A DNA stretch of 64,000 nucleotides from NCBI RefSeq assembly GCF_037948395.1, contig NZ_CP149940.1, positions 1,488,001-1,552,000 on the forward strand, in the 5' to 3' direction. Positions 39,051 through 56,683 of the stretch are shown here, one piece after another. This stretch comes from Serratia nevei. GTDB taxonomy: Bacteria > Pseudomonadota > Gammaproteobacteria > Enterobacterales > Enterobacteriaceae. Position 1 is the first letter of the stretch. The number at the start of each line of letters is the position of its first letter. The notes beneath the pieces are model-generated. The model was not told where the DNA came from and made no database searches. It saw nothing but the letters and a program-made list of their open reading frames with translations. The position numbers and the translations under genes were made by a program.

Positions 39051-39818
39051 CTAAATGCCGCTGAACCAGTTGTAGCCCTGATCTTCCCAATACCCGCCCG
39101 GATTGACGTCGCTGACGAAGATCGCGGCGATATGTTTGGCGTTTTTGAACCCCAGTTTGGTTGGCACCCGCAGCCGCAGCGGGTAGCCATAGTCCGCCGG
39201 CAGCGCCTTGCCGCCGAAATCCAGCGCCAGGATGGTCTGCGGGTGCAGCGCGGTGGCCATGTCGAGGCTGGAGTAGTAGCGATCGGCGCATTTGAAGCCG
39301 ACGTAACCGGCATTGAGATCCGCGCCGACGTGCTGCAGAAAGGTGCGTAGCGGCACGCCGCCCCATTGGCCGATCGCGCTCCAGCCCTCAATGCAGATCA
39401 GACGCGTGATCTGGCTTTGCTGCGGCAGCCGCTGCAGCTGTTCCAGCGTCCAGGGGGCTTTTTTCTCCACTTTCCCGGCGACCTCAAGCCGGTAGCCGGC
39501 GAGATCGATCTCGGGGACGTTGTATTCCGGGTAAAACGCGTTGAAGGGGAAAGGGTGGGTAATCTGATCGGGCCGGTAAGTTTGCGCCAGCCGCTGGCCG
39601 CTGAACAGCCAGGCCTGCACGCGGTCGTTCCAGCGCGACATGGCCCACAGCACCTTATCCACCCGATCGCCGTCTTGCAGGTTGCAACCGGTGAGCATGG
39701 CGATACCACCCAGCGTCAGGCCGGAACGCAGCATCAGGCGGCGCTGCAGATTGACCAACTGCTTTTTTTGGTCCGGTTCCAGTTTTGGCGCGGTTGCCCG
39801 CGGCTTTTTCTCATTCAT
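39051..39818 (-). CDS. Tat-type molybdopterin-dependent oxidoreductase lipoprotein (first copy)
   Basis: 255 residues, sulfite oxidase/MsrP-like fold. The N-terminus has a twin arginine (RR at 26-27) followed by LRSGLTLGGIAMLTGC, i.e. a Tat-like signal ending in a lipobox (Cys-45). The molybdenum-ligand cysteine is C142 in CIEGWSAIGQWGG, equivalent to the conserved Cys of MsrP. Downstream KCADRYYSSLD, LRLRVPTKLGFKN and PGGYWEDQGYNWF are family segments. ATG 39818 overlaps the cytochrome b gene end by 8 bp, so both are coupled. It probably receives electrons from that cytochrome and reduces or oxidises an envelope substrate. Paralogue of the gene at 55036-55812. Confidence 0.88.
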   Translation of the reverse strand: MNEKKPRATAPKLEPDQKKQLVNLQRRLMLRSGLTLGGIAMLTGCNLQDGDRVDKVLWAMSRWNDRVQAWLFSGQRLAQTYRPDQITHPFPFNAFYPEYNVPEIDLAGYRLEVAGKVEKKAPWTLEQLQRLPQQSQITRLICIEGWSAIGQWGGVPLRTFLQHVGADLNAGYVGFKCADRYYSSLDMATALHPQTILALDFGGKALPADYGYPLRLRVPTKLGFKNAKHIAAIFVSDVNPGGYWEDQGYNWFSGI

Positions 39819-40416
39819 GTTTGCCACCCGTTATCATCGCCCACAGCGTTTTGGGCACGATGATCACCATAAAGACGTGGATCGCCACGAACAGGCCGAT
39901 GCCGGCCATGGCGAAGAAATGCACGTAGCGCGCGAAATCGAAGCCGCCAAACAGGGCGACCAATCCCTGCAGCTGAACCGGCTTCCAGATCGCCAGGCCG
40001 GACAGCACCAGCAACAGGCCCAGCGCCAGTACGCCGAGGTACATCAGCTTCTGAATGGCGTTGTAGTGGCCATGCCGGTGGCGCAGGCGCAGCGTCAACG
40101 CCAGCCAGATATCCTGCCGCAGCGCGCCAACGCGCAGCGGCAACAGATCGCGGCGAAAATGGCCGCTGAACAGGCTCCACAGCAGATAGCAGACGGCGTT
40201 GAGCGCCAATAGCCACATCACCGCCAAATGCCAACCAATCGCGCCGCCCAGCCAACCGCCCAGCGTCATCTGCGGCGGAAAGCGGAAATCGAACAGCGGC
40301 GAGGCGTTATAGATCTCCCAACCGCTCATAAACATGCACACCATGGCGAACAGGTTGATCCAATGAGTGATTCGAACCGGCCAGCGATGCACCGGCCGCG
40401 ACGCGTTGGTTTTCAT
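39811..40416 (-). CDS. Cytochrome b561-type membrane subunit (first copy)
   Basis: 201 residues with four to five membrane helices and haem-ligand histidines placed as in Ni/Fe-hydrogenase or MsrQ-like b-type cytochromes (RITHWINLFAMVCMFMSGW, ARYVHFFAMAGIGLFVAIHVFM). Such proteins move electrons from the quinone pool to a periplasmic partner. The adjacent oxidoreductase gene is translationally coupled (8-bp overlap) and is the obvious partner. A near-identical layout recurs at 54414-55025 with the order reversed relative to strand. It is second in an operon that starts with the DUF5666-like gene. Confidence 0.9.
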   Translation of the reverse strand: MKTNASRPVHRWPVRITHWINLFAMVCMFMSGWEIYNASPLFDFRFPPQMTLGGWLGGAIGWHLAVMWLLALNAVCYLLWSLFSGHFRRDLLPLRVGALRQDIWLALTLRLRHRHGHYNAIQKLMYLGVLALGLLLVLSGLAIWKPVQLQGLVALFGGFDFARYVHFFAMAGIGLFVAIHVFMVIIVPKTLWAMITGGKHE

Positions 40417-40428
40417 GGCTTTCTCCGG

Positions 40429-41055
40429 TTACATCGGCGGCACGGTGCCGTCTTTGCCGGCGGAGATGCGGGTGGCGATGCGCTCGCCCTTATCGTTGAC
40501 GGCGGAGAACAGCACGATGTGTACGCCAGGCTTCAGCAGGCTCAAATCGCCCGGATCCAGCGTCACGATCGGCACGTCTTCCGGCACGATGACGGTTTTC
40601 TGCTGGTTGCCGTAGGTGACGGTCAGGGTGCGACCGTTGGATTTCACCAGTTTGCCGACGGTGCCGTTGGTCATGGTGTCCACTTTGCCGTCGGCGGATT
40701 CCCAGGCCGAGTGCCCTTCGCCGGTGCCGCGCAGGCTGGCGGCGAATACGTGCACCTCCAGCGCTTTGAGCGTGCCGTCCGGCTGCGGCACGGCGGCGGT
40801 GCCGATAAAGCTGTCCGGTTTGATGTCGTCCAGCGTGGCTTTGGACACGCTGAGCACTTTGGTCTGATCGTTCAGCTTGACGCTGAGTGTCTCGCCTTTG
40901 CGATCGGTCAGCTGCAGATTGCCGTCGGCCACCTGGCTGATGGTGCCGCGCAGCGGCGCGATGACTTTGCCCGGCGTTTGGGCGGCGGCGGCCAGGCCGC
41001 TGGACAGCAGCAAGGTGGATAACAGTAAACCGGCTATACGATGACGAGTAATCAT
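40429..41055 (-). CDS. Periplasmic DUF5666-like protein
   Basis: 208 residues. Signal peptide ITRHRIAGLLLSTLLLSSGLAAAA then repeated small beta units resembling DUF5666 (LRGTISQVADGNLQLTDRKGETLSVKLNDQTKV and later GTVGKLVKSNGRTLTVTYG), a fold seen in metal- or oxidant-linked periplasmic proteins. No catalytic residues are evident. It is first gene of the operon leading to the cytochrome b561 and molybdopterin genes, 12 bp upstream of the former, and starts 66 bp from the CusR-type palindrome. Function unknown; a chaperone or ligand-binding role is possible. Confidence 0.75.
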   Translation of the reverse strand: MITRHRIAGLLLSTLLLSSGLAAAAQTPGKVIAPLRGTISQVADGNLQLTDRKGETLSVKLNDQTKVLSVSKATLDDIKPDSFIGTAAVPQPDGTLKALEVHVFAASLRGTGEGHSAWESADGKVDTMTNGTVGKLVKSNGRTLTVTYGNQQKTVIVPEDVPIVTLDPGDLSLLKPGVHIVLFSAVNDKGERIATRISAGKDGTVPPM

Positions 41056-41121
41056 AACGTTCTCCTGAAATAAGTTTGCCGGTTAAGCATGGTTGAGCCA
41101 TTGGGTCAGCGCCATGGCCGT

Positions 41122-41143
41122 TTGATGACATTAATGTCATCAA
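41122..41143. promoter_or_regulatory. Perfect 22-bp palindrome, CusR/CopR-type box
   Basis: A 22-bp perfect palindrome whose core is TGACA-TTAA-TGTCA, matching the TGACA-N4-TGTCA pattern of CusR/CopR/PcoR boxes. It lies between the divergent response-regulator gene (41196) and the DUF5666-cytochrome-oxidoreductase operon (start 41055), so it could control both. Confidence 0.8.
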
Positions 41144-41195
41144 GTTTGTCCGCCGAAGCTGCTAGTATTTTTGCAGACGTAACGAGGTGGCGAGC

Positions 41196-41867
41196 ATGCG
41201 AATACTGGTAGTTGAAGACGATATCGGCACAGGGGATTACCTGAAGAAAGGGCTGGGGGAAGCGGGGTACGGCGTCGATTTGGCGCGCAACGGCACCGAC
41301 GGGCTGTTTCGCGCGTTGGAGCAGGATTACGATGCGATCGTGCTCGATGTGATGCTGCCGGGGCTGGATGGCTGGCAGATTATCGAGGTGCTGCGCAAGA
41401 AAAGCGACGTGCCAATTCTGTTTCTCACCGCCCGCGACGGCGTGCAGGATCGCATCCACGGCCTGGAGCTGGGCGCGGACGATTATCTGATTAAACCGTT
41501 TTCGTTTACCGAACTGGTGCTGCGTTTACGCACCTTGCTGCGCCGCGGGCCGGCGCGCGAAGCCGATCATTACGCCATCGCCGATCTGCAGCTGGACGTG
41601 TTGCGTCGCCGGGCGGTGCGCCAGGATCAGGTGATCCCGTTGACCAACAAGGAGTTCATGCTGCTGCATCTGCTGGTGCGGCGCGAGGGCGAAGTGCTGT
41701 CGCGCACGCAAATAGCCTCTCAGGTGTGGGACATGAATTTTGACAGCGACACCAATGTGGTTGACGTGGCCATCAAACGCCTGCGCGCCAAAATAGACCG
41801 GCCGTTCGACGTCAAGCTGATCCACAGCGTGCGCGGTATCGGCTATGTTTGCGAGCCACGCTCGTGA
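41196..41867 (+). CDS. Response regulator, CusR/HprR type
   Basis: 223 residues, OmpR family. Receiver domain with phosphorylation site D51, T/S at LTARDG and K100 (IKPFSF), then a winged helix-turn-helix DNA-binding domain ending in [11 protein letters not shown]. It is closest to heavy-metal/redox regulators CusR, PcoR and HprR. ATG 41196 has GAGGTGG nine bases upstream; a GTG at 41187 lies within that site. Its stop overlaps the kinase start (GTGA). The palindrome upstream fits a site it binds. Confidence 0.93.
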
Positions 41868-43285
41868 GCGGGCGCACGTCACGTCGGCCGGTATCGCTGA
41901 CGCTGCGCACCGCCACGCTGTTCGCGCTGGTGGCCGCGTTGGTGGTGAGCGGGACGGGCGGGTATCTGTATAGCGCCATGCGCCAGGAAATGACGCTGCG
42001 CAGCGATCTGCAGGTGACCGGGCGCGTAGAGTATTTCCGCCATCTGCTGGGACAGCGCTTTCCTTTGGCTCGCCTGACCGCCAATAACGGCCTGTTTGAA
42101 AACATGCTGGGCAATGAACAGGACGTGCTGATTTTCCAAATCCCGGGACAAAAACCGCTCATCAACGTGAACCCGGCCGGGGTGGCATTGCCGCCGATCG
42201 TGCCGACGCCGGCCGGTCAGGCGCAGACGTTGGCCGCCGTGCGCGGCGGGGAAACGGCGCAGGGGGTGCCGCTGCGCGCGGCTTCCGCGATGGTGCGCCT
42301 GGAAGACGGCAGCCTGTTGCAGATCTCCGCCGCGCACGTGATGGTCAACGAACAGAAGATGCTGGCGCGCTACCTGTGGCGCATCGTCGCGGCGGTGGCG
42401 GTGGCTTTCCTGCTGATTGCGCTCCTGGGGTATGGGGTCATGCGCCGAGGATTGAAGCCGTTATGGCGCATGGCGGCGCAGGCGGCGCAGATTGCACCCA
42501 ATACGCTGTCGACACGCCTGAGCGAGCAGGGGGCGCCGAAGGAGTTGCAGCAGCTGACCCGTTCGTTCAATGCGATGCTCGATCGGTTGAATGAAGGCTA
42601 TCAGCGGCTGACGCAGTTTTCCGCCGATCTGGCCCATGAGATCCGCACCCCGGTAGGGGCGTTGATGGGCCAGTGCCAGGTGGCGCTTTACCAGCCCCGC
42701 AGCGTGGAGGAGTACGAAACCCTGCTGTCGAACAATATGGATGAGCTGGAGCGCATTTCCCGCATGGTGGAAAATATCCTGTTCCTGGCGCGCGCCGGCG
42801 AGGCGCAGTCTGCGCTGAACTACAGTCGGCTGGATGTGGCGCTGGAGCTGCGGCGGGTGGCGGATTATTTCGAGGTGCTGGCGGAAGAACGCGGCATCGC
42901 GCTGAGCTGCGCAGGTGAGGGAACGCTGAAGGCGGACGCGATGCTGTTCCAGCGCGCGTTGAGCAACCTGGTGGCTAACGCGGTACGTTATGCCGACGAG
43001 AACAGCCGGATCGTCCTGCGGGCTGAACGGCGCGCCGATGCCTGGTGGGTACAGGTTATCAATCAGGGGCCGCCGATCGCGCCGGCACAGCTGGAAAAGT
43101 TGTTCGATCGCTTCTATCGCGCCGATCCCGCGCGCAGCGCCGGCAATCATGCCAGTGGGCTGGGGCTGTCTATCGTGCGCGCCATCATGACGCTGCACGG
43201 CGGTGAAGTTCGCGCGCAGTGTTCCGATGGCCGGGGTTCTGCTTGCTTGACCTTTAGCCTGATATTCCCCTCATCAGTTCAATGA
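41864..43285 (+). CDS. Heavy-metal-type sensor histidine kinase
   Basis: 473 residues. Two membrane helices (about 17-38 and 165-190) bracket a periplasmic sensor domain, followed by HAMP, the H-box [15 protein letters not shown] with the phospho-accepting His, an N-box ([12 protein letters not shown]) and G-box [11 protein letters not shown]. The layout and length match the CusS/heavy-metal sensor kinase family. The start is a GTG overlapping the regulator stop, so the pair is coupled. Stimulus is not readable: copper, other metals, or oxidants such as hypochlorite (as for HprS) are all plausible, given the oxidoreductase module next to it. Confidence 0.92.
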
Positions 43286-43804: not shown

Positions 43805-44653
43805 GTGAATAAAATGAAATATAGATTTAATGACCATATTCTCTTTGACGCAGACACCAGAACCCTTAGCCCAACAGATTTTTCTGACGATCCCATATCC
43901 ATATCCAGTCCTTCCAAACGGTTGTTGTTGCTGTTGATTGCCCACCATGGCGAGGCCGTAGGGCGTGAACTGATATTCAAGAAGGTCTGGGACGATTACG
44001 GCATGGTGTCCAGCAATAATAATCTTAATCAGTGCGTCAGCAAATTGCGTCGGGTGATTAAAAACCTTGGCGTCGAGGATGAGGTCATTGTTACGGTTCC
44101 TAAAGTGGGCTTTATGTTGCGTGATGAGATTACCATCGAGTCTTATGAGGACGCGGAAGATATTCACGACGCGGAGCCTGCCGCGGCTGTGCCGGGATCT
44201 GCGGCCGCAGCGACGGTCAATCTGGCGTCCGACACCGTCATCGACGGGGCCTCTTCTCATCTTGGTTATTCCCGCCGTGGGTGGCTGATGTTCAGCGCGA
44301 TGGTTCTGGGGGGGATCCTCATGGCTATTGCTGTCACGGCCTATTTCAGCGGCTCGGGGGCCCGGCAGGAGAGCTACCTGGGAAAGTCGGGCAACTGTAA
44401 GGTTTTCATGTCGTTGCCTGATGCCTCGGCGACGGTCAACGCCAGCCTGAATCGGGACATTCTGGCTTACGCCGCGCACCAAACGGGAGAATGCAGCGGC
44501 GATGAGTTTTTGCTGGTGGTGCGCAGCAATCAGGTCAGGGCTTACATTTCCGGCATTTCCCGCTTATTCCTGCTGCGCTGCAAGATCTTGCGCGAACATA
44601 AAATGGAGATCTGTTCAGGATTGGAAAGCGACAATGCCGAGTTTATTAATTGA
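43805..44653 (+). CDS. ToxR/CadC-like membrane-bound winged-helix regulator
   Basis: 282 residues. N-terminal OmpR-type winged helix (about 5-105: LLLLLIAHHGEAVGRELIFKKVWDD, NNLNQCVSKLRRVIKNLG, IVTVPKVGFML), an acidic/Ala linker, one membrane helix at about 160-182 (WLMFSAMVLGGILMAIAVTAY), then a roughly 100-residue periplasmic domain with four cysteines (198, 230, 259, 270), suited to disulfide-based sensing. This is the CadC/ToxR one-component design, with DNA binding while anchored in the inner membrane. Start: GTG 43805 or ATG 43814; neither has a strong ribosome site. It lies directly upstream of the ecp locus on the same strand and is a likely regulator of it, by position only. Confidence 0.85.
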   Translation: MNKMKYRFNDHILFDADTRTLSPTDFSDDPISISSPSKRLLLLLIAHHGEAVGRELIFKKVWDDYGMVSSNNNLNQCVSKLRRVIKNLGVEDEVIVTVPKVGFMLRDEITIESYEDAEDIHDAEPAAAVPGSAAAATVNLASDTVIDGASSHLGYSRRGWLMFSAMVLGGILMAIAVTAYFSGSGARQESYLGKSGNCKVFMSLPDASATVNASLNRDILAYAAHQTGECSGDEFLLVVRSNQVRAYISGISRLFLLRCKILREHKMEICSGLESDNAEFIN

Positions 44654-44818
44654 CCATTGATAGCCGCTGCCCAACGCGATTGAAGGGCGGTGGATATGAC
44701 AAAAATATTACAGTGTTGAAATAGAACGTTCGACTTTCATTTGGCGGGTTGCCGTGTGGCGCTTACGAGAGGTATTTCCCTTTCTCTACCGCTTTCTACC
44801 TCATTATGGTGATTATGT

Positions 44819-45448
44819 ATGGTTAAAGCCGATTTCGGTGATGCGCTGCTATTTTTTGAACCCAGCTATTTAGTGAGAAGAGGAATGGAAGCATTTCTCG
44901 TTACCCAATCAAGTGACAGCTATTTTATCGACACCTTGAGGGAGCTGGAGGGGGTATTGAAAGAGGGAAAGCCTCGCGCGCTTATTATGGAGTTATATCA
45001 TCAGAGAGAATATTTGTATGATGTATTACGGTTCGTTCTGACGGCAAAAAATGTTTGGCCGGAAATTCCCTTGGTGATTTTCACCGCGGTAGAACACCCC
45101 GGTATATTAGCGTTGTTGGCGGCGGATGCGCGCATAGCGATAGTGGCAAAGGAGGAGCCATTGCATTGCCTGAATGACGCCATTGCGGCTGCGGGTGAGT
45201 TCTCCGGCTATCGTTCCCCGCATATTCGCGCCCGGCTGGTGCATTCGGCAGCCGCATTATCTGACAGTGAATGGCGAGTTTTGGCCATGATGGTTGCCGG
45301 TGCATCTCCAGGCAGCATCGCCAACGTGACCCGGCGAAGTTACAAAACCATAAGCTCCCATAAACTGAATATTATGCGAAAACTGGGCCTCAATCAGGCC
45401 GGCTTTATGCGGCTTATTCTTTCCCTGAGAACCCGATACCCTTCCTGA
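44819..45448 (+). CDS. LuxR-type regulator in the ecpR position
   Basis: 209 residues. N-terminal receiver-like domain (1-130) in which the usual phospho-acceptor position carries Glu-58 (ALIMELYH) rather than Asp, so it is probably not phosphorylated in the normal way. The C-terminal LuxR helix-turn-helix is clear (LSDSEWRVLAMMVAGASPGSIAN, RRSYKTISSHKLNIMRKLGL). It occupies the place of E. coli ecpR (matA), the activator of the ecp pilus operon, but the remembered sequence is quite different. It is about 430 bp upstream of ecpA. Confidence 0.82.
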   Translation: MVKADFGDALLFFEPSYLVRRGMEAFLVTQSSDSYFIDTLRELEGVLKEGKPRALIMELYHQREYLYDVLRFVLTAKNVWPEIPLVIFTAVEHPGILALLAADARIAIVAKEEPLHCLNDAIAAAGEFSGYRSPHIRARLVHSAAALSDSEWRVLAMMVAGASPGSIANVTRRSYKTISSHKLNIMRKLGLNQAGFMRLILSLRTRYPS

Positions 45449-45877
45449 CACAGGGCGAGAAGCCCCCCCTTTTTCTCTACAGCGGCCGATCTGGATTGGC
45501 TGCTGCCCCCTGCGTAAATCCAATCAATCTTTTCCCTCAGCGAACAACGCCGACGCTGAAATTTTGCACGGCCATGGGAAGGGCGAACAGAGCGTACTTG
45601 TGGTTAAACAATACCCGCCTTGCCGGGGTTAAACCACAATGTGATTGTGCTTTCATCAAAGGCTTAACCCGCTTTTTAATGTGATTGATGGGGGTTAAAA
45701 CATTAACGGCGGGATTTAAATCTAAATATTTGAACTTTAATAGTTAATGATTCTTTTTTGATCGGCCGGGGATATTCTTGTGGCGTCAAGCAGACTGGCT
45801 AAACGCAGTGATGCAAACGGCTGGCTGAGAATGGACGAAAGAAAGAAAACATATTCAACATTGAAGGGAGTTATACC
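45449..45877 (+). promoter_or_regulatory. ecp operon upstream region with a candidate regulator-binding repeat
   Basis: About 430 bp between the LuxR-type gene and ecpA with no gene. GTGGTTAAAC at 45600 and GTTAAACCAC at 45628-45637 form a 10-bp inverted repeat (one mismatch) around a GC-rich hairpin, and further GGGGTTAAA-like motifs follow to about 45715. The 3' half is AT-rich and should carry the ecpA promoter; AAGGGAG precedes the ecpA start. Confidence 0.45.
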
Positions 45878-46465
45878 ATGAAGAAAATGACACTGGCTCT
45901 GGCGATCGTTTCCGCCTTTGCAGCGGTCAGCACTGCTCAAGCCGCCGACGTTACCGCTCAGGCGCTGGCAACCTGGTCTGCGACCGCCAAGAAAGACACC
46001 ACCAGCAAACTGGTTGTGACGCCGATTGGCAGCCTGGCCTTCAACTATGCAGAAGGCATTAAGGGTTTCAACAGCCAGAAAGGCCTGTTTGACGTCACCG
46101 TGGAAGGCGATACCACGGCCACCGCTTTCAAACTGACCTCAAAACTGGTCTCCAATACGCTGACTCAGCTGGATACTTCCGGTTCTACGCTGGAAGTCGG
46201 GGTGAACTATAACGGTGCGGTGGTCGGGAAAACGGCTGAAACCACCATGATCGACACCACCGCCGGCATTTTGGGCGGCAATCTGAGCGCCCTGTCCAAC
46301 GCCTACAACCAGGCCGGCCGCACCAGCGCGCAGGATCAGTTCACCTTCAGCATCATCGGCGCGACGTCAAACGGCACCACCGCCGTCACGGATTTCAGCA
46401 CGCTGCCGGAAGGTATCTGGAGCGGCGACGTCAGCGTCGAGTTCAACGCGACCTGGACTTCCTAA
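45878..46465 (+). CDS. ecpA: Common pilus major pilin EcpA
   Basis: 195 residues. Signal peptide [22 protein letters not shown] and mature start [20 protein letters not shown], then blocks nearly identical to E. coli EcpA (MatB): [46 protein letters not shown]. It is the structural subunit of the alternate chaperone-usher pilus used for adherence and biofilm. AAGGGAG upstream of the ATG. First structural gene of ecpABCDE. Confidence 0.96.
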
Positions 46466-46542
46466 TCCCCCGAACGATCTGCATCTGGCAGGGGGGAGAC
46501 CTCCTGCTATTTATCGCTCATCAACGCCAGTGGAATACCGCA

Positions 46543-47211
46543 ATGACACGCTTTTCTCTCGCCGTCACCCTGATGTTAATGCTGCTGCGGCCGGCTTTGG
46601 CGCTCGATGTGGGTGAGATCAGCGCCTTCATGCCTGGCGACAGCGCGCGCCTGAGCAAGGAAATCAAAAACACCACCGACAGCGGCCGGCTGGTGACCAT
46701 CAAGATCGAACGCATTTCCAGTCCCCTGGCCTCCGGCACGGTGATCCCGATGAGCAGTCGGGATGAAATGCTGCTGTCGCCCGCCAGCCTGATCTTGCCG
46801 GCCAACGCCAGCGATGTGATCCGCTTTTACTACAAGGGGCCGAATGATGCCCAAGAGCGTTACTACCGCATCGTTTGGTTCGATCAGGCGCTGAGCGAGG
46901 CGGGGCAAAACTCGGCTCGGCGTAATGCCGTGGCCACCACGTCGGCGCGCATCGGCACCATTTTGGTGGTGGCGCCTCGGCAGGATCGCTTCGCCTATCA
47001 GTTCGCCAACGGACGGATCAAAAACACCGGCAACGCCACGTTCAAAGTGGTGGCCTACGGCAATTGCAGGAACAAGCAAGACGGCAGCGACTGCAAGGAA
47101 AACTATTTTGTGATGCCGGGGAAGGATCGCGCCTTCAGCAAGGTTGACGTCAACGATAAAAAAGGACGCGTCGCGCTGTGGCACGGCGAACAGTTTATCC
47201 CGGTGAAGTAA
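46543..47211 (+). CDS. ecpB: Pilus chaperone EcpB
   Basis: 222 residues, alternate chaperone-usher (CS1/ECP class) periplasmic chaperone. Signal peptide ending at [12 protein letters not shown]; two immunoglobulin-like domains with [25 protein letters not shown] and the [12 protein letters not shown] segment typical of this class, and a C-terminal disulfide ([11 protein letters not shown]). It keeps EcpA/EcpD subunits folded before the usher. Its stop overlaps an in-frame ATG of ecpC by one base. Confidence 0.94.
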
Positions 47212-47261
47212 TGCGCGCGTTATCCACGATGGATGCAAAACAATCACGCAAGGAGTGGCAT

Positions 47262-49781
47262 GTGAACGCTGTGCTGTTGAGAACGCTTTTGGCTGCCGGT
47301 GCGCTGGCGCTCCCGACGCTGTTGCCTGGCCGGATGGCGATGGCGGCCGGTTTGACGCAGATTAACGGCGTGCTGATCCCGCACACTTTCAGCCTGGCGT
47401 TGCGCGAGGGGATGAGTATTCCGCTGTTGTTGCATTATGAAAAGAGCGATGGCGTCAAAGACGACAGCCGCATCGGCCATGCCTTTCTCTACCTGGATCA
47501 GGACCGGCTAAAGATTCGTCGGGTGACGCTGGAGGATAACGACGACGGCGCCCGGCTGACGGCGGCGATTGCCGGCCAGCTGCAGGCTTTGCAGGATGCG
47601 CCATTCGATCGGCAGCAGCATATTCGGATCGCGGACGACGCCTGGCTGGCGCTGGATTTCCGGCAGCTCAACCTGCAGCTGGTGGTGAAGGAATCCGCGT
47701 TGGGGACGGTGCTGCGCGCCCGCTCCAGCGACATCGGCGCGTCCAGCGTGGATGCCGTAAGCAGCACGCTGGATTATAACCTCGGGGTCTACGATAACCG
47801 GGCCCGCGCCAGCGAAGGCAATACCTCCAGTTATTTATCGCTCAACAGCGTCACGGCGTTGCGCGAACACCACGTGGAGTTGAACGGTTCCATCTACGGT
47901 ATCGGCAGCGGCGATGAAAACGCCACGCTGTACAAAGCAATGTACGAGCGTGATTTCGCCGGCCGCCGTTTCGCCGCCGGCATGCTGGACAGCTGGAACC
48001 TGCAGTCGCTGGGGCCGGTCACGACCATCAACTCGAGCAAGATTTATGGCCTGTCCTACGGCAACCGCGCCAACTCGACGGTATTCGATAATTCCCAATC
48101 GCTGACGCCGATCGTGGTTTTTTTCCCCTCGGCCGGCGAGGTGCATCTGTCGCGCGACGGGCGGCTGCTCAGCGTACAAAACTTCACGATGGGCAACCAT
48201 GAAGTGGACACCGGCAGTTTGCCCTACGGTATCTATGACGTAGAGGTGGAGGTCGTGGTCAACGGCAAAGTGGTCGATAAACGCATGCAGCGAGTGAATA
48301 AATTGTTCAGCCCCAATCGCGGTGCGAATGCGCCGCTGGCCTGGCAATTCTGGGGTGGGATGCTGCGCATGGACGACTGGCGCGGCGAAAGGGAACGCCA
48401 CCGCCCGGCAAAGGACTCTTATTTGCTTGGCGCTTCGGCTAGCGGCAATCTGCAAACGCTTAATTGGGCGCTGTCGGGGTATTCGTTTGACGGCAACGCC
48501 GTCGGCGAGAGCCGCGTCAGCCTGCCGGTGACCGAGTCGATTCAGATCAACCTGCAAAACATGGCGGCCTCCGATCGCTCCTGGAGCCTGGTCAACAGCG
48601 TCAGCGCCGCGTTGCCCGGCGGCTTCAGCAGCGTATGGATCAATCAGGAGAAAACGCAGATTGGCGATCGTCTGTTGCAAAATGACGCCTATAACCGCGC
48701 CGTTGGCGGCAGCCTTAATCTGGGGGCGCTGTGGTCTCCGCTGGGCACCCTGAGCGCCAGCTACAACGACGATAAGAAGAACGACAGTCACTATTACAAC
48801 GCCGACTATTACCAGAACATCTTTACCGGCCGCTTCGGCACGCTGGGCGTCCGGGCGGGCGTGCAACGCTACAACAACGGCAGCAGCAACGCCAATACCG
48901 GCAAGTACATCGCGCTCGATTTTTCACTGCCGATGGGCAACTGGCTCAGCGCCGGCGTTTCCAATCAAAACGGTTACACCACCGCCAACCTGGCGGCGCG
49001 CAAGGACATCAAGGACGGGCCGATCCGCACCCTGGGCGCCAACCTGTCGCGGGCGATTTCCGGTGATACCCGCGGCGACAATCGCTTCAACGGTGGTGGC
49101 TATGCGCGCTTCGACACCAAGTATTCGGCCGGCACGCTCAACGTCAGCAGCTCCGCCGACGGCTACGTTAACAGCAGCCTGACCGCGAGCGGCAGCATGG
49201 GTTGGCAAGGGCGTGATATTGCCATCAGCGGCCGCAACGAAGGCAACGCCGGGATTATCTTCAATACCGGCATTGAAAACGACGGCCTGCTGACCGCACG
49301 GGTTGACGGCCGGATGGTGAAGCTGAGCGGCAATAAGAATTACCTGCCTTTGTCGCCTTACGGTCAGTACGACGTTGAGCTGATGAACAACAAAAACTCG
49401 GCGGAGAGCTTCGACATCGTCACCAAGCGCAAGAGCAAGCTCACCCTGTATCCGGGCAACGTGGCGGTGATCTCGCCGGAGATAAAACAGATGGTGACGG
49501 TGTTTGGCCGCATCAAAGCGGAGGACGGCACGCTGCTGGCCAACGCCTATATCAAGAACCATATCGGCCGCACCCGCACCGATGAGAAAGGCGAATTTAT
49601 CATGGACGTCGACAAGAAATTCCCGGTTATCGATTTTACCCACGGCGGCAATCAGACATGCGAAGTGGATTTGGATCTCAGCAAGGCGCAAGGCGCCGTG
49701 TGGGTCGGCGACGTGATCTGCACCGGGCTGAAAACCTATGCAGGCAATATGTCATCCGGGGAGTCTGACCATGAGAGCTAA
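47262..49781 (+). CDS. ecpC: Outer-membrane usher EcpC
   Basis: About 839 residues with a signal peptide ([22 protein letters not shown]) from GTG 47262, which has AAGGAG at ideal spacing. An alternative ATG at 47211 lies on the ecpB stop. The protein matches E. coli EcpC through most of its length ([63 protein letters not shown], the terminal [21 protein letters not shown]). It forms the beta-barrel export and assembly platform of the pilus. It overlaps ecpD by 11 bp. Confidence 0.95.
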
Positions 49782-51405
49782 CGTTGCGCTGTTGTTGTTG
49801 GCGCTGGTCGCCCCCGCGCTGCAGGCGGCGGTCAGCCAGACCAACTGGCCGGATGCGGCGGTCATGAAATTTGTCTTCGTGGAGAACAACGCCGACGACA
49901 ACTTTTTCGTCACGCCGGCCGGCGGGCTGGATCCGCGCATGACCGGCGCCAATAAGTGGACCGGGCTGAAATACGGCGGTTCCGGCACTGTCTATCAGCA
50001 GAGCCTGGGGTACGTGGATAATGGTTATAACACGGGGCTGAATGCCAACTGGCGCTATGACATGTGGCTGGAAAATGCGCCGATAAAGAATCCGTTCCTC
50101 GGCCTGCGCTGCATCAACTGGTATGCCGGTTGCAATATGGATACCAGCTTGATTCTGCCGCAGACCACCGACGAAAAGGGATTTTACGGCGCCGTGGTTA
50201 CGCCCGGCGGCGCAAAATGGATGCACGGCATGATGTCGCCGAGCTTCTATCAGTATCTGAAGCAGATGGCGGCGGGCGAAGCTTTCAGCATGCAGATCAA
50301 CGGCTGCCAAACGTCGGTGGCTTATGACGCCGCGGCCGGCGGCCGCTGTCGGGATCAGGCCAGCGGCAGCTGGTACAAGCGGACCGTCACGCACAGCAAG
50401 GCGGCCCACCTGCGCTTTATCAATACCAACGCCGTATCGGAGGTGTTCGTCAATAGCGATGGGGTGCCGATCATCGGCGAGGGCAATGCCGATTGCAAGA
50501 ACCAGACCATCGGCGCTCGCTCAGGCATCATGTGCAAGATGGTCAGCTACGATTTGCAGACCGACGGCAGCGTGAGCAATACCTCGATTCATATTTTCCC
50601 GGCGATTAACCATGCGGCGCTGTCCTCAGCGGTGAACGCCGCCGATCTGCAGTTCAGTCTGAACGGCAACACCTGGAAAAACACGTCGGGCACCGGCAGC
50701 TACTATACGTTTAACGAGCTGAAGAGCAGCAACGCCGTCTATGTGTTCTTCTCCAGTAACTTCTTCAAACAGATGGTCGCGCTGGGGATTTCCGACAGCG
50801 GCACTCGCGATCTGATCAATTTCCGTTTTCAGAACACCACCTCGCCGGAGTCGGGATGGTATGAGTTTTCCACTTCAAACCAGCTGATTATCAAGCCGCG
50901 CGATTTCAGCATCAGCATTATTTCCGATGATTACGACAACAGCCCACACCGTGAAGGCTATGTCGGCCCGGCGGAGCCGGCGCTGGAGTTCGGCTACTTC
51001 GTGACCACCAGCGGCAAAACCGCCGCCGATCAGGTGAGGGTGATGGCGACCGGGCCGACTCAGGCGATCAATGGGGTGAACTATTGCCTCTTTTCTTCTG
51101 CGGATAACACTACCCAGGTGCCGTTCCCCGCCACACTCGGCATCACCACCAGCACCAACGGTCAGCAGAGCTTCGCCGCCGGCTGCGATGGCCAGTGGCA
51201 CGACATGACCAATGCGCTCTGGAGCAGCACGCCGTGGAATGATATCTCCGGTGAAGTGGGGGTGCTGAACAAGACCCACGTGACCTTTAGCATTCCGATG
51301 AACAATCCGATCTCACTGAGAACCGTCGACGGCAACGGTTGGTATGGCGACGTCAGCGCCGCCGGTGAAATTCATGTCGAAGCCACCTGGCGCAACATCA
51401 ATTAA
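49771..51405 (+). CDS. ecpD: Pilus tip adhesin EcpD
   Basis: 544 residues (E. coli EcpD about 547). Signal peptide [19 protein letters not shown]. The long, Cys-containing beta-rich body ([20 protein letters not shown]-type turn regions, [23 protein letters not shown]) and a pilin-like C-terminus ([26 protein letters not shown], echoing the EcpA end) fit the polymerising two-domain tip adhesin. It starts inside the ecpC 3' end. It binds host or surface glycans at the pilus tip in E. coli. Confidence 0.93.
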
Positions 51406-51414
51406 GGGCAGGGC

Positions 51415-52083
51415 GTGAAACTTGTGCTGATAGGGTTGCTGTGTTTGTCCTTCCCCTTTACCGCCGCCGCGATCAATGTCGGTACCCTGACGTTTGCCAT
51501 GGATCAGGATCGCTCATTCACCGCCAAGCGGGTGTTGAATAACAACCGCAGTGCGCGCCTGTATCAGGTGAGCATTCGCGCCATCGATCGGCCGGGAGAG
51601 CGCGAGGTGCGCAGCCGGCCGGCGGACGGCGAGCTGCTGTTCGCACCGCGCCAGCTGACGCTGCAGGCCGGGCAGGCGGAGTACTATAAGTTTTTCTATC
51701 GCGGGCCGCAGGATAATCGCGAGCGTTATTACCGGGTATCATTTCGCGAAGTGCCGACCCGACTGTTCGAGCCGGGGCCGCGTCGGGGCGCCGGCGTCAA
51801 CCTGGAGCCGATCGTGGTGATGGACACCATTCTGGTGGTGCGCCCGCGTCAGGTAAACTTTGCCTATCGGCTCGATACCCAGCGCGGTACGCTCACCAAC
51901 ACCGGCAACACCTACTTCAAGTTCCTGCTCAAGCCGGGCTGCAACAGCACGGATGAAGAGGGCGTCACCGAATACCTGCGCCCCGGCGATACGCTGACCC
52001 ATGCCGGTATTCGGCTGAAGGGGCAGAAATTCATTATCTATAACGACAAATTTATCAGCGTCGATCGCAGCTGCCTCGATTAA
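51415..52083 (+). CDS. ecpE: Second pilus chaperone EcpE
   Basis: 222 residues, paralogue of EcpB with the same class features: signal KLVLIGLLCLSFPFTAAAI, LFAPRQLTLQAGQAEYYKFFYRGPQDNRERYYRVSF and a NTGNTYFKFLLKPGC end region. The start is a GTG nine bases after the ecpD stop. In E. coli the last ecp gene is a second chaperone likely dedicated to EcpD. Its stop overlaps that of the convergent histidine kinase gene by 4 bp, so the two units face each other with no terminator between them. Confidence 0.92.
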   Translation: MKLVLIGLLCLSFPFTAAAINVGTLTFAMDQDRSFTAKRVLNNNRSARLYQVSIRAIDRPGEREVRSRPADGELLFAPRQLTLQAGQAEYYKFFYRGPQDNRERYYRVSFREVPTRLFEPGPRRGAGVNLEPIVVMDTILVVRPRQVNFAYRLDTQRGTLTNTGNTYFKFLLKPGCNSTDEEGVTEYLRPGDTLTHAGIRLKGQKFIIYNDKFISVDRSCLD

Positions 52084-53546
52084 CGCGGCGGAATGGCAAA
52101 GCGGAAGCAGGCGCCGCTTTGCGCTTGTTCGATCAGCTGAATATCGCTGTCGTGCAGCTGCAGAATGCGCCGCACGATCATCAGGCCCAGTCCGCCGGAA
52201 GGGCGCCGGGCGCCGCTCAGGACAGACGGGCGCACGAACAGATCGGCGCGCAGCGTCTGCGGAATGCCGGGGCCGCTGTCGCTGACCTGCACCATCACTC
52301 GATCGTCCTGCCGCCACAGCCGCACGCCGATGTCGCCGCCGGGCGGCGTATGGCGAATGGCGTTGTCCAACAGGTTGGTCAGCACCCGCTCAATCATGCT
52401 GAGATCGGCGAACACCGGCGGAATGCCGGGGGGAATGTCGGCATGCAGCCGCTGGTTGCGCGCCTCCGCCGCCAGCTCGAACTTTTGGAACACGTCCTGC
52501 AACAGCTCGCTGAGGGAAAAAGGCTCTTTCTGCGGTTTCACTACGCCGTACTCCAGCCGCGCCAGCTCGAACAGCTCCTGTGCCAGCTTGCCCACTTTGC
52601 GGCTCTGCGCCAGCGCGATCTCCAGATAGCGCCGCCGATCGGCTTCGCTCAGGGTGGCGGACTTGACCGACAGCGTCTCCAGATAGCCGTGCAGCGAGGT
52701 GAGCGGGGTGCGCAGATCGTGCGAGACGTTGGCGATGAACTCACGCCGCAGCCGATCCTGCTGCGCCAGCGTTTGCCACTGTTCGGCAAGGCGCTGCGCC
52801 ATGCGGTGGAAGGCCTGCTGCAGCTGGCTGACTTCGTCGCGCCCGGCCCGTACCGCCGGCAGCGCCGCGTAGGCCTGCACCGCCTCGATGCCGCCGCTGT
52901 CCAGCGCGCTGACCTGCCGGGTCAGGCGACGGATAGGGCGCGTTACCCAATAAAACGCGAAGCCGCCGGCCAGCAGGCTGAACAGCACCATCAGCCCGGA
53001 GGTCCACAGCGCCATCCTGACCGCCGAGTTGAACTGGGCGTTGCTGGCCAGCGCCGTGTACTCTTCGCCGAGCAGCACCACGTACAGATAGCCTTCGATC
53101 CGGCCATCGACCTTAAGCGGCGCGACGCTGAACACCTTACGCCCGTCCACGCTGCGCGGATCGTCGCCATACACCGGCATCGGCGCGCCGCCGAGCAGCG
53201 CCTGCAGCGGCGGCAACGCGACCCGCTGCCGCTTCAGATGCCCGGCCGGCGCGGCGTTGCCGATAATCGCGCCCTGCTTGTCGAGCAGGTAAACCTCAAC
53301 GCTGGGGTTCACCGCCATCAGTTGATCGAACAGGGTATGCACCGCCTGCGGATCCGGCCCGTTCACCCCCAGCAGCGGGTTGCTGTCGGCGATATGCTGC
53401 GCCAGGTTGCCGGACAGGCGCTGGATCACCGCCTGGCTGTACTGGGTGCTGCTGCGCACCTGCATCCAGCCGGAAAAGGCGCAGCCGATGACGATCAGCA
53501 GCGCGAAGATCAGCGTGAGGCGCTGCGCTAACGTAAGGTTTTTCAT
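52080..53546 (-). CDS. Sensor histidine kinase (second module)
   Basis: 488 residues. N-terminal helix (LTLIFALLIVIGCAFSG), a periplasmic domain of about 140 residues, a second helix (WTSGLMVLFSLLAGGFAFYWV), HAMP, then the H-box FIANVSHDLRTPLTSLHGY with the phospho-accepting His, N-box (LTNLLDNAIRHTPPGG), and G-boxes DSGPGIP and GGLGLMIVRRIL. The regulator gene ends 3 bp before its start, forming a pair. It is convergent with ecpE and faces the second cytochrome/oxidoreductase operon, which is divergent from its regulator. Stimulus unknown. Confidence 0.92.
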   Translation of the reverse strand: MKNLTLAQRLTLIFALLIVIGCAFSGWMQVRSSTQYSQAVIQRLSGNLAQHIADSNPLLGVNGPDPQAVHTLFDQLMAVNPSVEVYLLDKQGAIIGNAAPAGHLKRQRVALPPLQALLGGAPMPVYGDDPRSVDGRKVFSVAPLKVDGRIEGYLYVVLLGEEYTALASNAQFNSAVRMALWTSGLMVLFSLLAGGFAFYWVTRPIRRLTRQVSALDSGGIEAVQAYAALPAVRAGRDEVSQLQQAFHRMAQRLAEQWQTLAQQDRLRREFIANVSHDLRTPLTSLHGYLETLSVKSATLSEADRRRYLEIALAQSRKVGKLAQELFELARLEYGVVKPQKEPFSLSELLQDVFQKFELAAEARNQRLHADIPPGIPPVFADLSMIERVLTNLLDNAIRHTPPGGDIGVRLWRQDDRVMVQVSDSGPGIPQTLRADLFVRPSVLSGARRPSGGLGLMIVRRILQLHDSDIQLIEQAQSGACFRFAIPPR

Positions 53547-53549
53547 GGC

Positions 53550-54263
53550 TCACTCTTGCGGCGCGGCCGCGAATTTATAGCCCATGCCCCACACCGTGAG
53601 GATGCGCTCGGGTTCCGCCGGGTTGCGCTCGATCTTGATGCGCAGCCGGTTGATATGGGTGTTGACGGTGTGCTCATACCCCTCGTGCTGATAGCCCCAA
53701 ACCTGATTCAACAGGCTCAGGCGCGAGAATACCTGGCCCGGGTGGCGGGCGAAAAAGTACAGCAGGTCGAATTCGCGCGGCGTCAGCTCGACCGGCTGCT
53801 GGTGCAGGTGCACTTCGCGGGCGATGGGGTCGATGGTCAGATCGTTGAAGCTGAGTACGCCGGCGTCCATGCGCAGGTTGCGGCTCATCGCTTCCTGGCG
53901 GCGAAACAGCGCCTTGACCCGCGCCACCAGCTCCAGCATGGAGAAGGGCTTGGCCAGATAGTCGTCGGCGCCCAGCTCCAGCCCCAGCACGCGGTGCACC
54001 TCGCTGGAGCGCGCGCTGGTGATGATGATCGGCGTGTAGCGCGTCATGGTGCGCGCCCGGCGGCAAATCTCCAATCCGTCCACGCCCGGCAGCATCAGAT
54101 CGAGGATGAGGGCGTCCCAGCCGCCCTGTTCCAGCATCGCCATGCCCCGGTTGCCGTCGGCGGCGTGGCTGATGGCGTAACCCTCGTCGCGCAGATGCAG
54201 CTGCAGCAGTTCGGCGATGTCGCCGTCGTCCTCGACGATCAAAATTCGTTTTGGCTTGTCCAT
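53550..54263 (-). CDS. OmpR-family response regulator (second module)
   Basis: About 237 residues from ATG 54263 (MDKPKRILIVEDD); an ATG two codons earlier is also possible. Receiver with phosphorylation site D55 and the lysine in LAKPFSM, then a winged helix (LTPREFDLLYFFARHPGQVFSR, TVNTHINRLRIKIE, LTVWGMGYKFA). It is divergent from the cytochrome b561/molybdopterin operon across about 150 bp. No TGACA-N4-TGTCA palindrome like the one at 41122 is present there, so the two modules are probably controlled differently. Confidence 0.93.
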   Translation of the reverse strand: MDKPKRILIVEDDGDIAELLQLHLRDEGYAISHAADGNRGMAMLEQGGWDALILDLMLPGVDGLEICRRARTMTRYTPIIITSARSSEVHRVLGLELGADDYLAKPFSMLELVARVKALFRRQEAMSRNLRMDAGVLSFNDLTIDPIAREVHLHQQPVELTPREFDLLYFFARHPGQVFSRLSLLNQVWGYQHEGYEHTVNTHINRLRIKIERNPAEPERILTVWGMGYKFAAAPQE

Positions 54264-54413
54264 TCTCATTACCGCTGATTGCCCGTTTCTCTCTGAAGTC
54301 TACACAACCCCCACCGGCGGAGTTATCACATTTTATTTAACTTTGCGTGAGGTCTTGGGGAACAAATCCGGGGAATACTCGGCTCATCGCCTCATTGGTC
54401 GCCAGGAGTTCGC

Positions 54414-55025
54414 ATGAGCCTCACTCTCACCCCGGAACAACGCCAGACGGTGCATCCGCTGTGGCTGCGGTTGACGCACTGGCTGAATGCGCTGGCGATG
54501 CTGATCATGGTGACCAGCGGCTGGCGCATCTACAACGCCTCGCCGCTGTTCAACTTCAGCTTTCTCAATGAGCTGACGCTCGGCGGTTGGCTGGGCGGCG
54601 CGCTGCAGTGGCACTTCGCCGGCATGTGGCTGTTCGGCGTCAACGGGCTGTGCTACCTGCTGATCAACCTGGCCAGCGGGCGTTTCAAACGCAAGTATTG
54701 GCCGCTCAGCCCACGGCAGTTTCTCGCCGATATAGGTGCCGCGCTGCGCGGCAGGCTGCAACACGCCGACCTGCGCCACTACAACATGGTGCAACGCGTG
54801 GCCTATCTGTCGGTGATGATCCTCGGCGTGATGAGCGCGCTGTCCGGGCTGGTGCTGTGGAAATCGGTGCAGTTTCCGCTGCTGCGCACGCTGCTCGGCG
54901 GTTATGAGGCGGCGCGCTATATCCACTTTTTTGCCATGTCGGCGCTGGTGGTCTTCGTCGCGATTCACCTGGTGATGGTGGCGCTGGTGCCCCGGACGCT
55001 GCTGGCCATGCTGCGCGGACGCTAA
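54414..55025 (+). CDS. Cytochrome b561-type membrane subunit (second copy)
   Basis: 203 residues; paralogue of the protein at 39811-40416 with the same blocks (RLTHWLNALAMLIMVTSGWRIYNASPLFNF, TLGGWLGGALQWHFAGMW, ARYIHFFAMSALVVFVAIHLVMV) and conserved haem-ligand histidines. It should pass electrons from quinol to the oxidoreductase encoded next. Seven bases separate the two genes and AAGGAG lies between them. It is the first gene of a four-gene operon ending in the DoxX-like gene. Confidence 0.92.
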   Translation: MSLTLTPEQRQTVHPLWLRLTHWLNALAMLIMVTSGWRIYNASPLFNFSFLNELTLGGWLGGALQWHFAGMWLFGVNGLCYLLINLASGRFKRKYWPLSPRQFLADIGAALRGRLQHADLRHYNMVQRVAYLSVMILGVMSALSGLVLWKSVQFPLLRTLLGGYEAARYIHFFAMSALVVFVAIHLVMVALVPRTLLAMLRGR

Positions 55026-55035
55026 GGAGTGAATG

Positions 55036-55812
55036 ATGGAAAAGGATAAACAGATCATGACGATCATTGAAGGGCAGGCGATCGTCAAAGAAGCGCAGCG
55101 GCTGTTGAGCGCGCCTTCGCGCCGCCGCTTTCTGCGCAACGGCCTGACGCTGGGCGGCATCGCCATGCTCACCGGCTGCGATCTCAGCGATAACGCCAAC
55201 GTCGAACAGGCGCTGAACCGCATCTCGCGCTTCAACGATCGGGTACAGGGCTGGCTGTTCAATGGCGATCGCCTGGCGCCGGTCTACCCGGAATCGATGA
55301 TCACCCGGCCGTTCCCGTTCAACGCTTTCTACGCCGAGGAGGACGCGCCGGACATCAACGGCGACGATTACCGGCTGGAGGTGGCGGGACTGGTGCAGGA
55401 CAAACGCGCCTGGAGCCTGCCGCAGCTGCACCGCATGGCGCAGGTCAGCCAGGTGACGCGCCATATTTGCGTCGAGGGCTGGAGCGCCATCGGCAAGTGG
55501 GGCGGCGTGCCGTTCGCGACCTTTCTCAAGGCGATCGGCGCGGATCTGAGCGCCCGCTACGTCAGCTTCAAATGCGCCGACGATTACTACACCAGCATCG
55601 ACATGGCCACCGCGCTGCACCCGCAGACGATTATTGCGCTGACCTATGACGGCCAGATCTTGCCGCGCAAGTACGGCTACCCGATGAAACTGCGCATGCC
55701 GACCAAGCTGGGTTACAAGAACCCGAAACACATTCAGGTGATCGAGGTCACCAACCGCTTCCCGGGCGGTTACTGGGAAGACCAGGGTTACAACTGGTTT
55801 GGCGGCAGCTGA
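55036..55812 (+). CDS. Tat-exported molybdopterin oxidoreductase lipoprotein (second copy)
   Basis: 258 residues. A canonical Tat motif SRRRFLR (28-34) followed by GLTLGGIAMLTGC (lipobox Cys-48) predicts Tat export and lipidation. The Mo-ligand cysteine is C145 in CVEGWSAIGKWGG; KCADDYYTSIDMATALHPQT and MRMPTKLGYKNPKHI-type blocks match the first copy closely. Of two adjacent ATGs, 55036 has better spacing to AAGGAG than 55033. With its cytochrome b561 it forms an MsrPQ-like electron chain to the periplasm. Substrate (methionine sulfoxide or another S/N-oxide) is inferred. Confidence 0.9.
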   Translation: MEKDKQIMTIIEGQAIVKEAQRLLSAPSRRRFLRNGLTLGGIAMLTGCDLSDNANVEQALNRISRFNDRVQGWLFNGDRLAPVYPESMITRPFPFNAFYAEEDAPDINGDDYRLEVAGLVQDKRAWSLPQLHRMAQVSQVTRHICVEGWSAIGKWGGVPFATFLKAIGADLSARYVSFKCADDYYTSIDMATALHPQTIIALTYDGQILPRKYGYPMKLRMPTKLGYKNPKHIQVIEVTNRFPGGYWEDQGYNWFGGS

Positions 55813-55871
55813 GGCGGCCGCCTGCCATTCTCCGGCACCCCGGTGCCTTTGACATGACGGAAGGAAATACC

Positions 55872-56147
55872 ATGAAAAAGTTATTCGCAATGATGATGTG
55901 CAGCGCGCTGATGCTGGGCGTGGCCGGTGCCAACGCCGCCGATGGCATGAGCAAAGACGCGATGAAAAAGGACGGCATGAGCCAGATGTCGCACGACGGC
56001 ATGAAGAAAGCGTGCATGGGCAAGGACTGCATGAAGAAAGACAAGATGGGCAAAGACGCGATGAAAAAGGATGGCATGGCGAAAGACGGTATGGCCAAAG
56101 ACGGCATGAAGAAAGACGAAATGAAGAAGGACGCGATGGGGCACTAA
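55872..56147 (+). CDS. Secreted pentapeptide MXKDX repeat protein
   Basis: 91 residues. Signal peptide KKLFAMMMCSALMLGVAGANA, then an almost pure repeat of Met-X-Lys-Asp-X units (such as MKKDG, MAKDG, MGKDA), about a dozen copies, with two cysteines (KACMGKDCMKK). Such MXKDX repeat proteins are known only as an uncharacterised family. The dense Met/Asp/Lys content could bind copper(I) or serve as a sacrificial methionine-oxidation substrate for the adjacent oxidoreductase; both are conjecture. AAGGAAA precedes the ATG at 55872. Confidence 0.88.
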   Translation: MKKLFAMMMCSALMLGVAGANAADGMSKDAMKKDGMSQMSHDGMKKACMGKDCMKKDKMGKDAMKKDGMAKDGMAKDGMKKDEMKKDAMGH

Positions 56148-56212
56148 GCCGCCGCACCCCGCGGCCGCAAGCGGGCGATCCGCGGCGGCCGTGGGCAACA
56201 TAAGGAGAGAGG

Positions 56213-56683
56213 ATGATGCTGGCGACATGGCTGCGGCGCTTTCAGCGCTCGAACGGGGACGTTATCTTTATGCGCGCGGCGCTGGTGGTGATCTTCGCCG
56301 CCTTCGGTTACGCCAAGTGGTTTGATTACGAGGCGCAGGGGCTGGTACCGCTGATCGGCAACAGCCCGCTGCTGAGCTGGATGCATCAGGCGTTCGGCAT
56401 CCGCGGCGCCAGCTATGCGCTGGGCGTCGCCGAGTGGAGCTTCGGCTTGCTGCTGCTGGCGGGATTCTGGTCGCGGCGGCTGGGGTTGCTGGGGGCGATC
56501 GGTTCGACGGTAACCTACCTAACTACGCTGACGCTGATCTTTTCCACGCCGGGGGCCTGGGAGCCTTCCGCCGGCGGTTTTCCGGCCATGGCCGGCGCCA
56601 CCAGCTTTTTAATCAAGGATCTGGTGTTGCTGGCCGGTTCCCTGGTGCTGCTGAAAGCCGACTTGCCGGCCGAGCAGGCATAA
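56213..56683 (+). CDS. YkgB/RclC-like DUF417 membrane protein
   Basis: 156 residues, four membrane helices, DoxX/DUF417 family. RAALVVIFAAFGYAKWFDYEAQGLVPLIGNSPLLSW and WSFGLLLLAGFWSRRLGLLGAIGS match E. coli RclC (YkgB), which protects against reactive chlorine species. It ends the second module operon, 66 bp after the MXKDX gene, with AAGGAGAG upstream. The pairing with a methionine-sulfoxide-type oxidoreductase points to an oxidant-defence operon. Confidence 0.88.
   Translation: MMLATWLRRFQRSNGDVIFMRAALVVIFAAFGYAKWFDYEAQGLVPLIGNSPLLSWMHQAFGIRGASYALGVAEWSFGLLLLAGFWSRRLGLLGAIGSTVTYLTTLTLIFSTPGAWEPSAGGFPAMAGATSFLIKDLVLLAGSLVLLKADLPAEQA

Follow-up and report, generated by a model that had tools for sequence, protein, structure and literature searches.

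Two predicted methionine-repair modules of separate origin on either side of an ecp pilus insert in Serratia nevei

Within a 64,000-nucleotide stretch of the Serratia nevei genome (the window; NCBI RefSeq assembly GCF_037948395.1, contig NZ_CP149940.1, positions 1,488,001 to 1,552,000 of the forward strand), two gene modules lie on opposite sides of the ecp pilus genes, each encoding a twin-arginine translocation (Tat)-type lipoprotein molybdopterin oxidoreductase, a b561 cytochrome, and a divergently transcribed response regulator/sensor kinase pair. The best overall explanation, which we consider probable, is that both are envelope methionine-repair modules, with module B being of the OrhKR type and module A being under copper-type regulation. 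The two modules are of one type and of separate origin. Gene order, homologies, and promoter site mark module B as the Serratia member of the published OrhK/OrhR oxidant-response type; module A, by analogy with Escherichia coli K-12, may guard a methionine-dependent, perhaps copper-binding, protein. Taken as a whole, the locus consists of one known system, one likely variant, and an insert between them, with no evidence for an adhesion link. Its features are as follows (positions are counted within the window).

Module A
39051..39827, minus strand: Tat-type lipoprotein molybdopterin oxidoreductase (PF00174), catalytic subunit; Cys motif ICIEGWSAIGQWGG, lipobox LTGC followed by Asn
39811..40416, minus strand: membrane cytochrome b561 (PF01292, by domain match), presumed electron donor
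40429..41055, minus strand: accessory DUF5666-like protein with a presumed signal peptide; M128 and M208, both invariant, are the only Met residues of the mature part
41122..41143, no strand assigned: perfect 22-bp palindrome TTGATGACATTAATGTCATCAA with CusR-type half-sites, resembling the K-12 cus site, in the divergent promoter region
41187..41867 (alternative ATG at 41197), plus strand: response regulator of the CusR/HprR type, above the TIGR01387 cut-off
41849..43285, plus strand: sensor kinase of the CusS/CopS type, above the TIGR01386 cut-off

Insert, outside both modules
43805..52083, plus strand: ToxR-like gene, LuxR-type gene, and ecp pilus genes; presence variable in the genus

Module B
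52080..53546, minus strand: OrhK-like sensor kinase, 49% identical to that of E. coli CFT073
53550..54269, minus strand: OrhR-like response regulator, 67% identical to that of CFT073
54326..54350, plus strand: predicted OrhR site TCACA-N15-CGTGA, corresponding to the published CFT073 repeat, in the divergent promoter region
54414..55025, plus strand: membrane cytochrome b561 (PF01292, by domain match)
55033..55812, plus strand: Tat-type lipoprotein molybdopterin oxidoreductase, catalytic subunit, 65% identical to the module A enzyme and 64% identical to that of CFT073
55854..56147, plus strand: Met-rich MXKDX-repeat peptide, MrpX-like; presumed mature part of 69 amino acids (aa) with 14 Met
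56213..56683, plus strand: DUF417/RclC-like membrane protein at the end of module B; present in 16 of 24 B loci of the genus by tblastn

A shared enzyme core with unlike two-component systems

Gene calls and domain matches confirmed the gene content and coordinates of both modules as given by a first-pass annotation made from the sequence alone. Identity between the two oxidoreductases amounts to 65% over 229 aa, and they have in common the twin Arg, the LTGC lipobox, and the Cys motif IC[IV]EGWSAIG[KQ]WGG, in line with the long shared stretches that had been reported for them; for the b561 pair, identity is 51% over 198 aa. Pairwise alignment thus gave high identity for the enzymes and low identity for the two-component proteins: the regulators (39%) and kinases (25%) are only generic OmpR and HisKA relatives, respectively. 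With the CusR/CopR model TIGR01387 (cut-off, 279.2 bits), the module A regulator scored 331 bits, being the sole one of 37 matches in the genome over the cut-off, and the module B regulator scored 171 bits; with the CusS/CopS model TIGR01386 (cut-off, 292.6 bits), the module A kinase scored 483 bits and the module B kinase scored 148 bits. The enzyme pairs are therefore homologous, whereas the two-component systems belong to different subfamilies and are not specific paralogs, so that the paralogy first proposed for whole modules holds for the enzyme core only. The accessory genes and regulators differ, as had been noted: a DUF5666-like gene and a CusR-type regulator in module A versus MXKDX and RclC-like genes and an OrhR-like regulator in module B.

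A canonical pair of MsrP (514 bits) and MsrQ (212 bits) is encoded elsewhere in the same genome, with no two-component genes among the open reading frames (ORFs) of its 10.5-kb stretch; thus, the two modules would supplement housekeeping repair. Both of their oxidoreductases are partnered by PF01292 proteins and not by a Ferric_reduct (PF01794) protein, the heme partner in canonical MsrPQ. Two further, weaker PF00174 matches were seen in this genome (L004 at C1:5119643 and L005 at C1:4473562). Directly behind the lipobox Cys, 33 of 37 A-group rows, including that of the window, have Asn, and 42 of 55 B-group rows have Asp; such a difference may point to different membrane sorting.

Two separate kinds of promoter site

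The genomes searched numbered 119 at the level of genus, family, and order, 369 at that of the class, and 398 at that of the phylum, with the window's genome counted in each set. The half-sites of the module A palindrome (TGACA-N4-TGTCA) match the K-12 cus site. A CusR-type site was present in 33 of 34 module A promoter regions (the exception being L078, on a Rhizobium plasmid) and in none of 34 module B regions; conversely, an OrhR-type site was present in 31 of the 34 module B regions (missing in L120, L143, and L147) and in none of the module A regions. Serratia itself contributed 24 of the 34 regions in each set. With up to one mismatch allowed, the palindrome core has no second occurrence in the genome, and the core of the module B site has one exact match and two matches with three mismatches. 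On both strands of the window, each kind of site occurs at one place, in neither case at ecp. As the sites show no cross-occurrence and one place each in the window, the two modules appear to be separately wired.

For loci of other genomes, the labels CusS-type and OrhK-type denote the best BLAST hit to the two window kinases. In L120, where the enzyme is of the B group and the kinase is CusS-type, the CusR-type site is narrowly missed. The CusS-type kinases of L075, L078, L119, L120, and L151 have a neighboring regulator that matches the module B regulator better (35 to 39%).

Proposed function and alternative chemistries

In the mechanism that we propose, the b561 cytochrome of each module would pass membrane electrons to the Tat-exported molybdenum lipoprotein of the MsrP superfamily, and each module would have a divergent two-component system of its own to switch it on and a methionine-bearing protein of its own in the periplasm as a partner. 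In module B, an oxidant signal would act through the kinase on the regulator, which would bind TCACA-N15-CGTGA; the operon would then provide a Met-rich sacrificial peptide and a reductase regenerating both this peptide and other envelope proteins. In module A, the CusR/HprR-type regulator, with the CusR-type palindrome, would cause the reductase to be expressed together with the DUF5666-like protein, a predicted OB (oligonucleotide/oligosaccharide-binding)-fold protein whose M128 and M208 may serve as Cu(I) ligands or as redox-active residues, kept reduced by the reductase in the way that MsrPQ acts on CusF in E. coli. An envelope redox-repair role, already suggested in the first-pass annotation, gains support from homology to MsrP and, by analogy, from the published OrhKR, MrpX, and BcrXQP systems.

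Methionine-sulfoxide reduction by both oxidoreductases is predicted from homology. Against it weigh the scores with the MsrP model (89 and 79.6 bits), both of which fall under its 207-bit cut-off. Weak matches to the SorA/SoxC models beside MsrP, together with Protein Data Bank matches of the module B enzyme to a "bacterial sulfite oxidase" (1xdq) and to several sulfite oxidases and sulfite:cytochrome c oxidoreductases, would suit enzymes that act on another S- or N-oxide or as sulfite dehydrogenases. We regard such activities as unlikely, since it is the MsrP model and 1xdq, which we take to be E. coli YedY/MsrP, that give the best matches. Further, a Met-rich ORF lies within 3.5 kb of the oxidoreductase in 74 of 80 named oxidoreductase relatives (the best 80 of 575, ranked by likeness to module B, with some contigs being short; the scan was without a shuffle control), and E. 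coli c3566 and c3567 deletion mutants are reported to show poorer growth with tert-butyl hydroperoxide (PMC8550376). Of the same 80 relatives, all have an adjacent b561 gene and none has a DUF5666-like gene.

Within the methionine-repair reading, module A may further represent a self-contained copper-methionine unit, which would combine a switch of the CusR type with a copper chaperone or sink (the DUF5666-like protein, with an OB fold but no sequence relationship to CusF) and a molybdenum/b561 reductase dedicated to keeping M128 and M208 reduced; elsewhere in the enzyme family, a Met-rich sacrificial peptide would take the place of the DUF5666-like protein in the corresponding genomic slot. 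We offer this tentatively, as a somewhat unlikely proposal. A rather better chance, if still short of an even one, attaches to the DUF5666-like protein having no copper or redox role, being instead an OB-fold envelope protein that is coexpressed for another reason and whose Met residues are structural. What speaks against the latter is the CusR-type regulator and promoter site; a structural comparison (VIA-align 2) in which the top five rows are CusF (four entries) and SilB; the separate occurrence of DUF5666-like proteins and Met-rich peptides, which were never together in one locus (n = 72, relatedness ignored); and a homolog (L166:4040-4867) in which the conserved MTNGTV motif is present three times and the reading frame contains 15 Met, suggestive of an amplified Met-bearing segment.

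Several observations weigh against the copper-methionine unit. Neither M128 nor M208 varies in any of the 46 close or the 23 divergent module sequences, counts that include the window, but they are equally invariant in 23 of 23 DUF5666-like proteins encoded away from the enzymes. The conservation of these residues thus needs no reductase, and the idea that they are conserved because of the neighboring reductase is unsupported. DUF5666-like proteins were matched in 39 of the 398 phylum genomes, and only in 13 of these 39 does one lie within 3 kb of an oxidoreductase match. In the structural comparison, the SilB row (8.7) is on par with unrelated rows at 8.2; Foldseek returned nothing at an E value of ≤0.001, with CusF not among the 50 rows listed; the model is of middling confidence (predicted local distance difference test score, 77.8), with M128 in its least certain stretch; and OB folds are common. 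Membership in the CusF family by sequence failed, with no match to PF11604 at an E value of ≤10 and an hhalign P of 0.07, and the M-x-M ligand pair of CusF is absent. PF11604 has no match anywhere in the genome, and no solved relative of the DUF5666-like family was found by sequence. The window's protein is 98% identical to a database protein labeled Serratia marcescens. In two genomes of one genus that carry module B elsewhere (loci L304 and L305), DUF5666-like proteins 60 to 63% identical to that of the window are encoded with no enzyme or two-component genes within ~5 kb.

Separate lineages around a variable ecp insert

A quick tree of 84 oxidoreductase rows, with canonical MsrP as the outgroup, placed the Serratia A and B enzymes in different parts, with intervening sequences from other families and from further classes of the phylum. 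The B side is a starred branch of 39 rows with a support of 98, in which the module B enzyme groups with copies from E. coli, Buttiauxella, Polaromonas, and Caballeronia; the branch with the Serratia A rows and their kin, where the module A enzyme groups with copies from other genera and one from another family, is weaker (support, 87), and some rows of a third group are long-branched. Constraining the 11 Serratia A and B rows to one clade changed the log likelihood by -267 units and was rejected by the approximately unbiased (AU) test (P = 2.3e-8, one model), and with it duplication within Serratia. The first-pass annotation had the modules arise from a duplication in place within an ancestral Serratia, with later specialization, as the 65% and 51% identities of the enzyme pairs and the mirror-image placement of the modules might suggest. 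This history has next to no probability in view of the AU test, the clustering of the A and B enzymes with different foreign copies, and the different subfamilies of the regulators; the modules also occur apart in other genera. From the separation on the tree and the rejection of a Serratia A-plus-B clade, we infer that the A/B split is older than the family. Two loci (L118 and L120) have a B-group oxidoreductase followed by a DUF5666-like gene, with L120 also having a CusS-type kinase, an apparent swap of accessory and regulator genes; L210 (Bordetella genomosp. 2) has two oxidoreductase and two b561 matches and a 226-aa Met-rich ORF.

Of 29 same-genus relatives, 25 had a match to module A or B, and the 4 with none have genomes of ≤3.6 Mb each (5.46 Mb in the window's strain). 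With the window included, the 26 genus genomes holding A or B comprise 15 with the order A-ecp-B, 7 with A and B adjacent and no ecp between them, 2 with A only, 1 with ecp and B without A, and 1 with B only, where ecp was looked for within the fetched stretches around the modules. The two-module layout with ecp between thus stands for 15 of the 22 genus genomes holding both modules and not for the other 7, nor does it extend to other genera: 14 loci (L062 to L075) have A or B alone with no ecp in the fetched stretches of 9 to 14 kb, and three of these genomes (G053, G060, and G063, all drafts) hold A and B on different contigs. Adjacency of the modules was seen within the genus only. Because it is missing from some two-module genomes, ecp is a variable presence/absence insert. 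Adjacency in the 15 genomes, together with the spacing of 519 bases between the module A kinase gene and the ToxR-like gene that follows it on the same strand, is what could be cited for the modules and the pilus forming one functional unit for adhesion, a link also raised in the first-pass annotation. Such a unit is highly improbable: ecp is absent from between the modules in 7 of the 22 genomes, neither regulator site is found at ecp, both enzyme operons are transcribed away from it, and the linkage is missing in the 14 loci of other genera. With ecp being variable and having no site of either kind, we see no tie to adhesion and reject it.

Two loci without ecp (L055 and L058) retain, next to the kinase gene of module B, a short string like that at the end of ecpE, a possible deletion scar that is too short to decide between gain and loss. 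At the outer borders, the DUF417/RclC-like gene of module B is followed by a BCCT transporter gene on the opposite strand, and module A is adjoined by a 191-aa gene (38352 to 38927) that recurs at 48 to 92% identity in many loci of the genus and is without a convincing Pfam match.

Comparison with known systems

Module B has the gene order of the OrhK/OrhR locus (c3564 to c3568) of uropathogenic E. coli CFT073 (PMC8550376), with identities of 49% for the kinase, 67% for the regulator, and 64% for the oxidoreductase, and with a Met-rich peptide in both. The regulator site is TCACA-N15-TGTGA in CFT073 and TCACA-N15-CGTGA in module B, with equal spacing and one half-site base differing. Given this architecture and site, the first reading of the locus as undescribed fails for module B. 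The two differ downstream, with the cotranscribed hlyCABD hemolysin operon in CFT073 and the DUF417/RclC-like gene in module B, and in the b561 gene, which is intact in module B and annotated as frameshifted in the CFT073 record (L261:2334-2932). For the CFT073 locus, H2O2 induction, direct binding and activation by OrhR, and resistance via c3566/c3567 are reported (PMC8550376). By blastn, part of module B was matched in 355 of 5,426 E. coli genomes (60 to 80% identity, none covering 80% of the query); all four genes are present in each of the 15 E. coli matches listed. MrpX-YedY1 of Azospira suillum (PMC5748585) and BcrXQP of Brucella (PMC8315932) are reported likewise to pair a Met-rich peptide with an MsrP-like enzyme in a hypochlorite response; they are regulated by a sigma/anti-sigma pair and the Serratia modules by two-component systems. 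Literature searches, which left most subscription journals outside, found no report pairing MXKDX with molybdopterin or b561, none of an oxidoreductase/b561/copper module like module A, and no DUF5666 title concerning module A.

Module A looks like the HprSR/CusSR-MsrPQ-CusF logic of K-12 packed into five genes of other protein families; the same five genes in identical order are present on a Rhizobium plasmid. Its regulator is 56% identical to K-12 CusR and 52% identical to HprR, and its kinase is 32% identical to HprS; its sensor domain has no solved relative by sequence. Shared with the K-12 HprSR/CusSR systems are the divergent regulator/kinase type, the class of palindromic site, and the combination of an accessory gene and a reductase. 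The partner protein differs, being PF01794 in K-12 MsrQ and a PF01292 b561 in module A, as does the accessory gene, which is DUF5666-like in module A and hiuH or cusF in K-12, where HprSR is divergent to hiuH-msrPQ. MsrP is not known to be a lipoprotein, as the module A enzyme is predicted to be. Compared with CusF and the C-terminal domain of SilB, which are Cu(I)/Ag(I) chaperones, the DUF5666-like protein is about twice as long and has neither the M-x-M pair nor a sequence-profile match. In K-12, msrPQ is reported to be induced by CusSR as well, with its products repairing those methionines of CusF that bind Cu(I) (PMC9302797); HprR and CusR are reported to recognize an identical DNA sequence (PMC8249747) and to respond to H2O2 and copper (PMC8249747 and PMC10920338). 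With module B, an OrhKR-type repair system is placed in Serratia without a hemolysin operon beside it. If our reading of module A is correct, DUF5666-like proteins would gain a first testable role, and five genes would join what E. coli spreads over the separate operons of CusSR, CusF, and MsrPQ.

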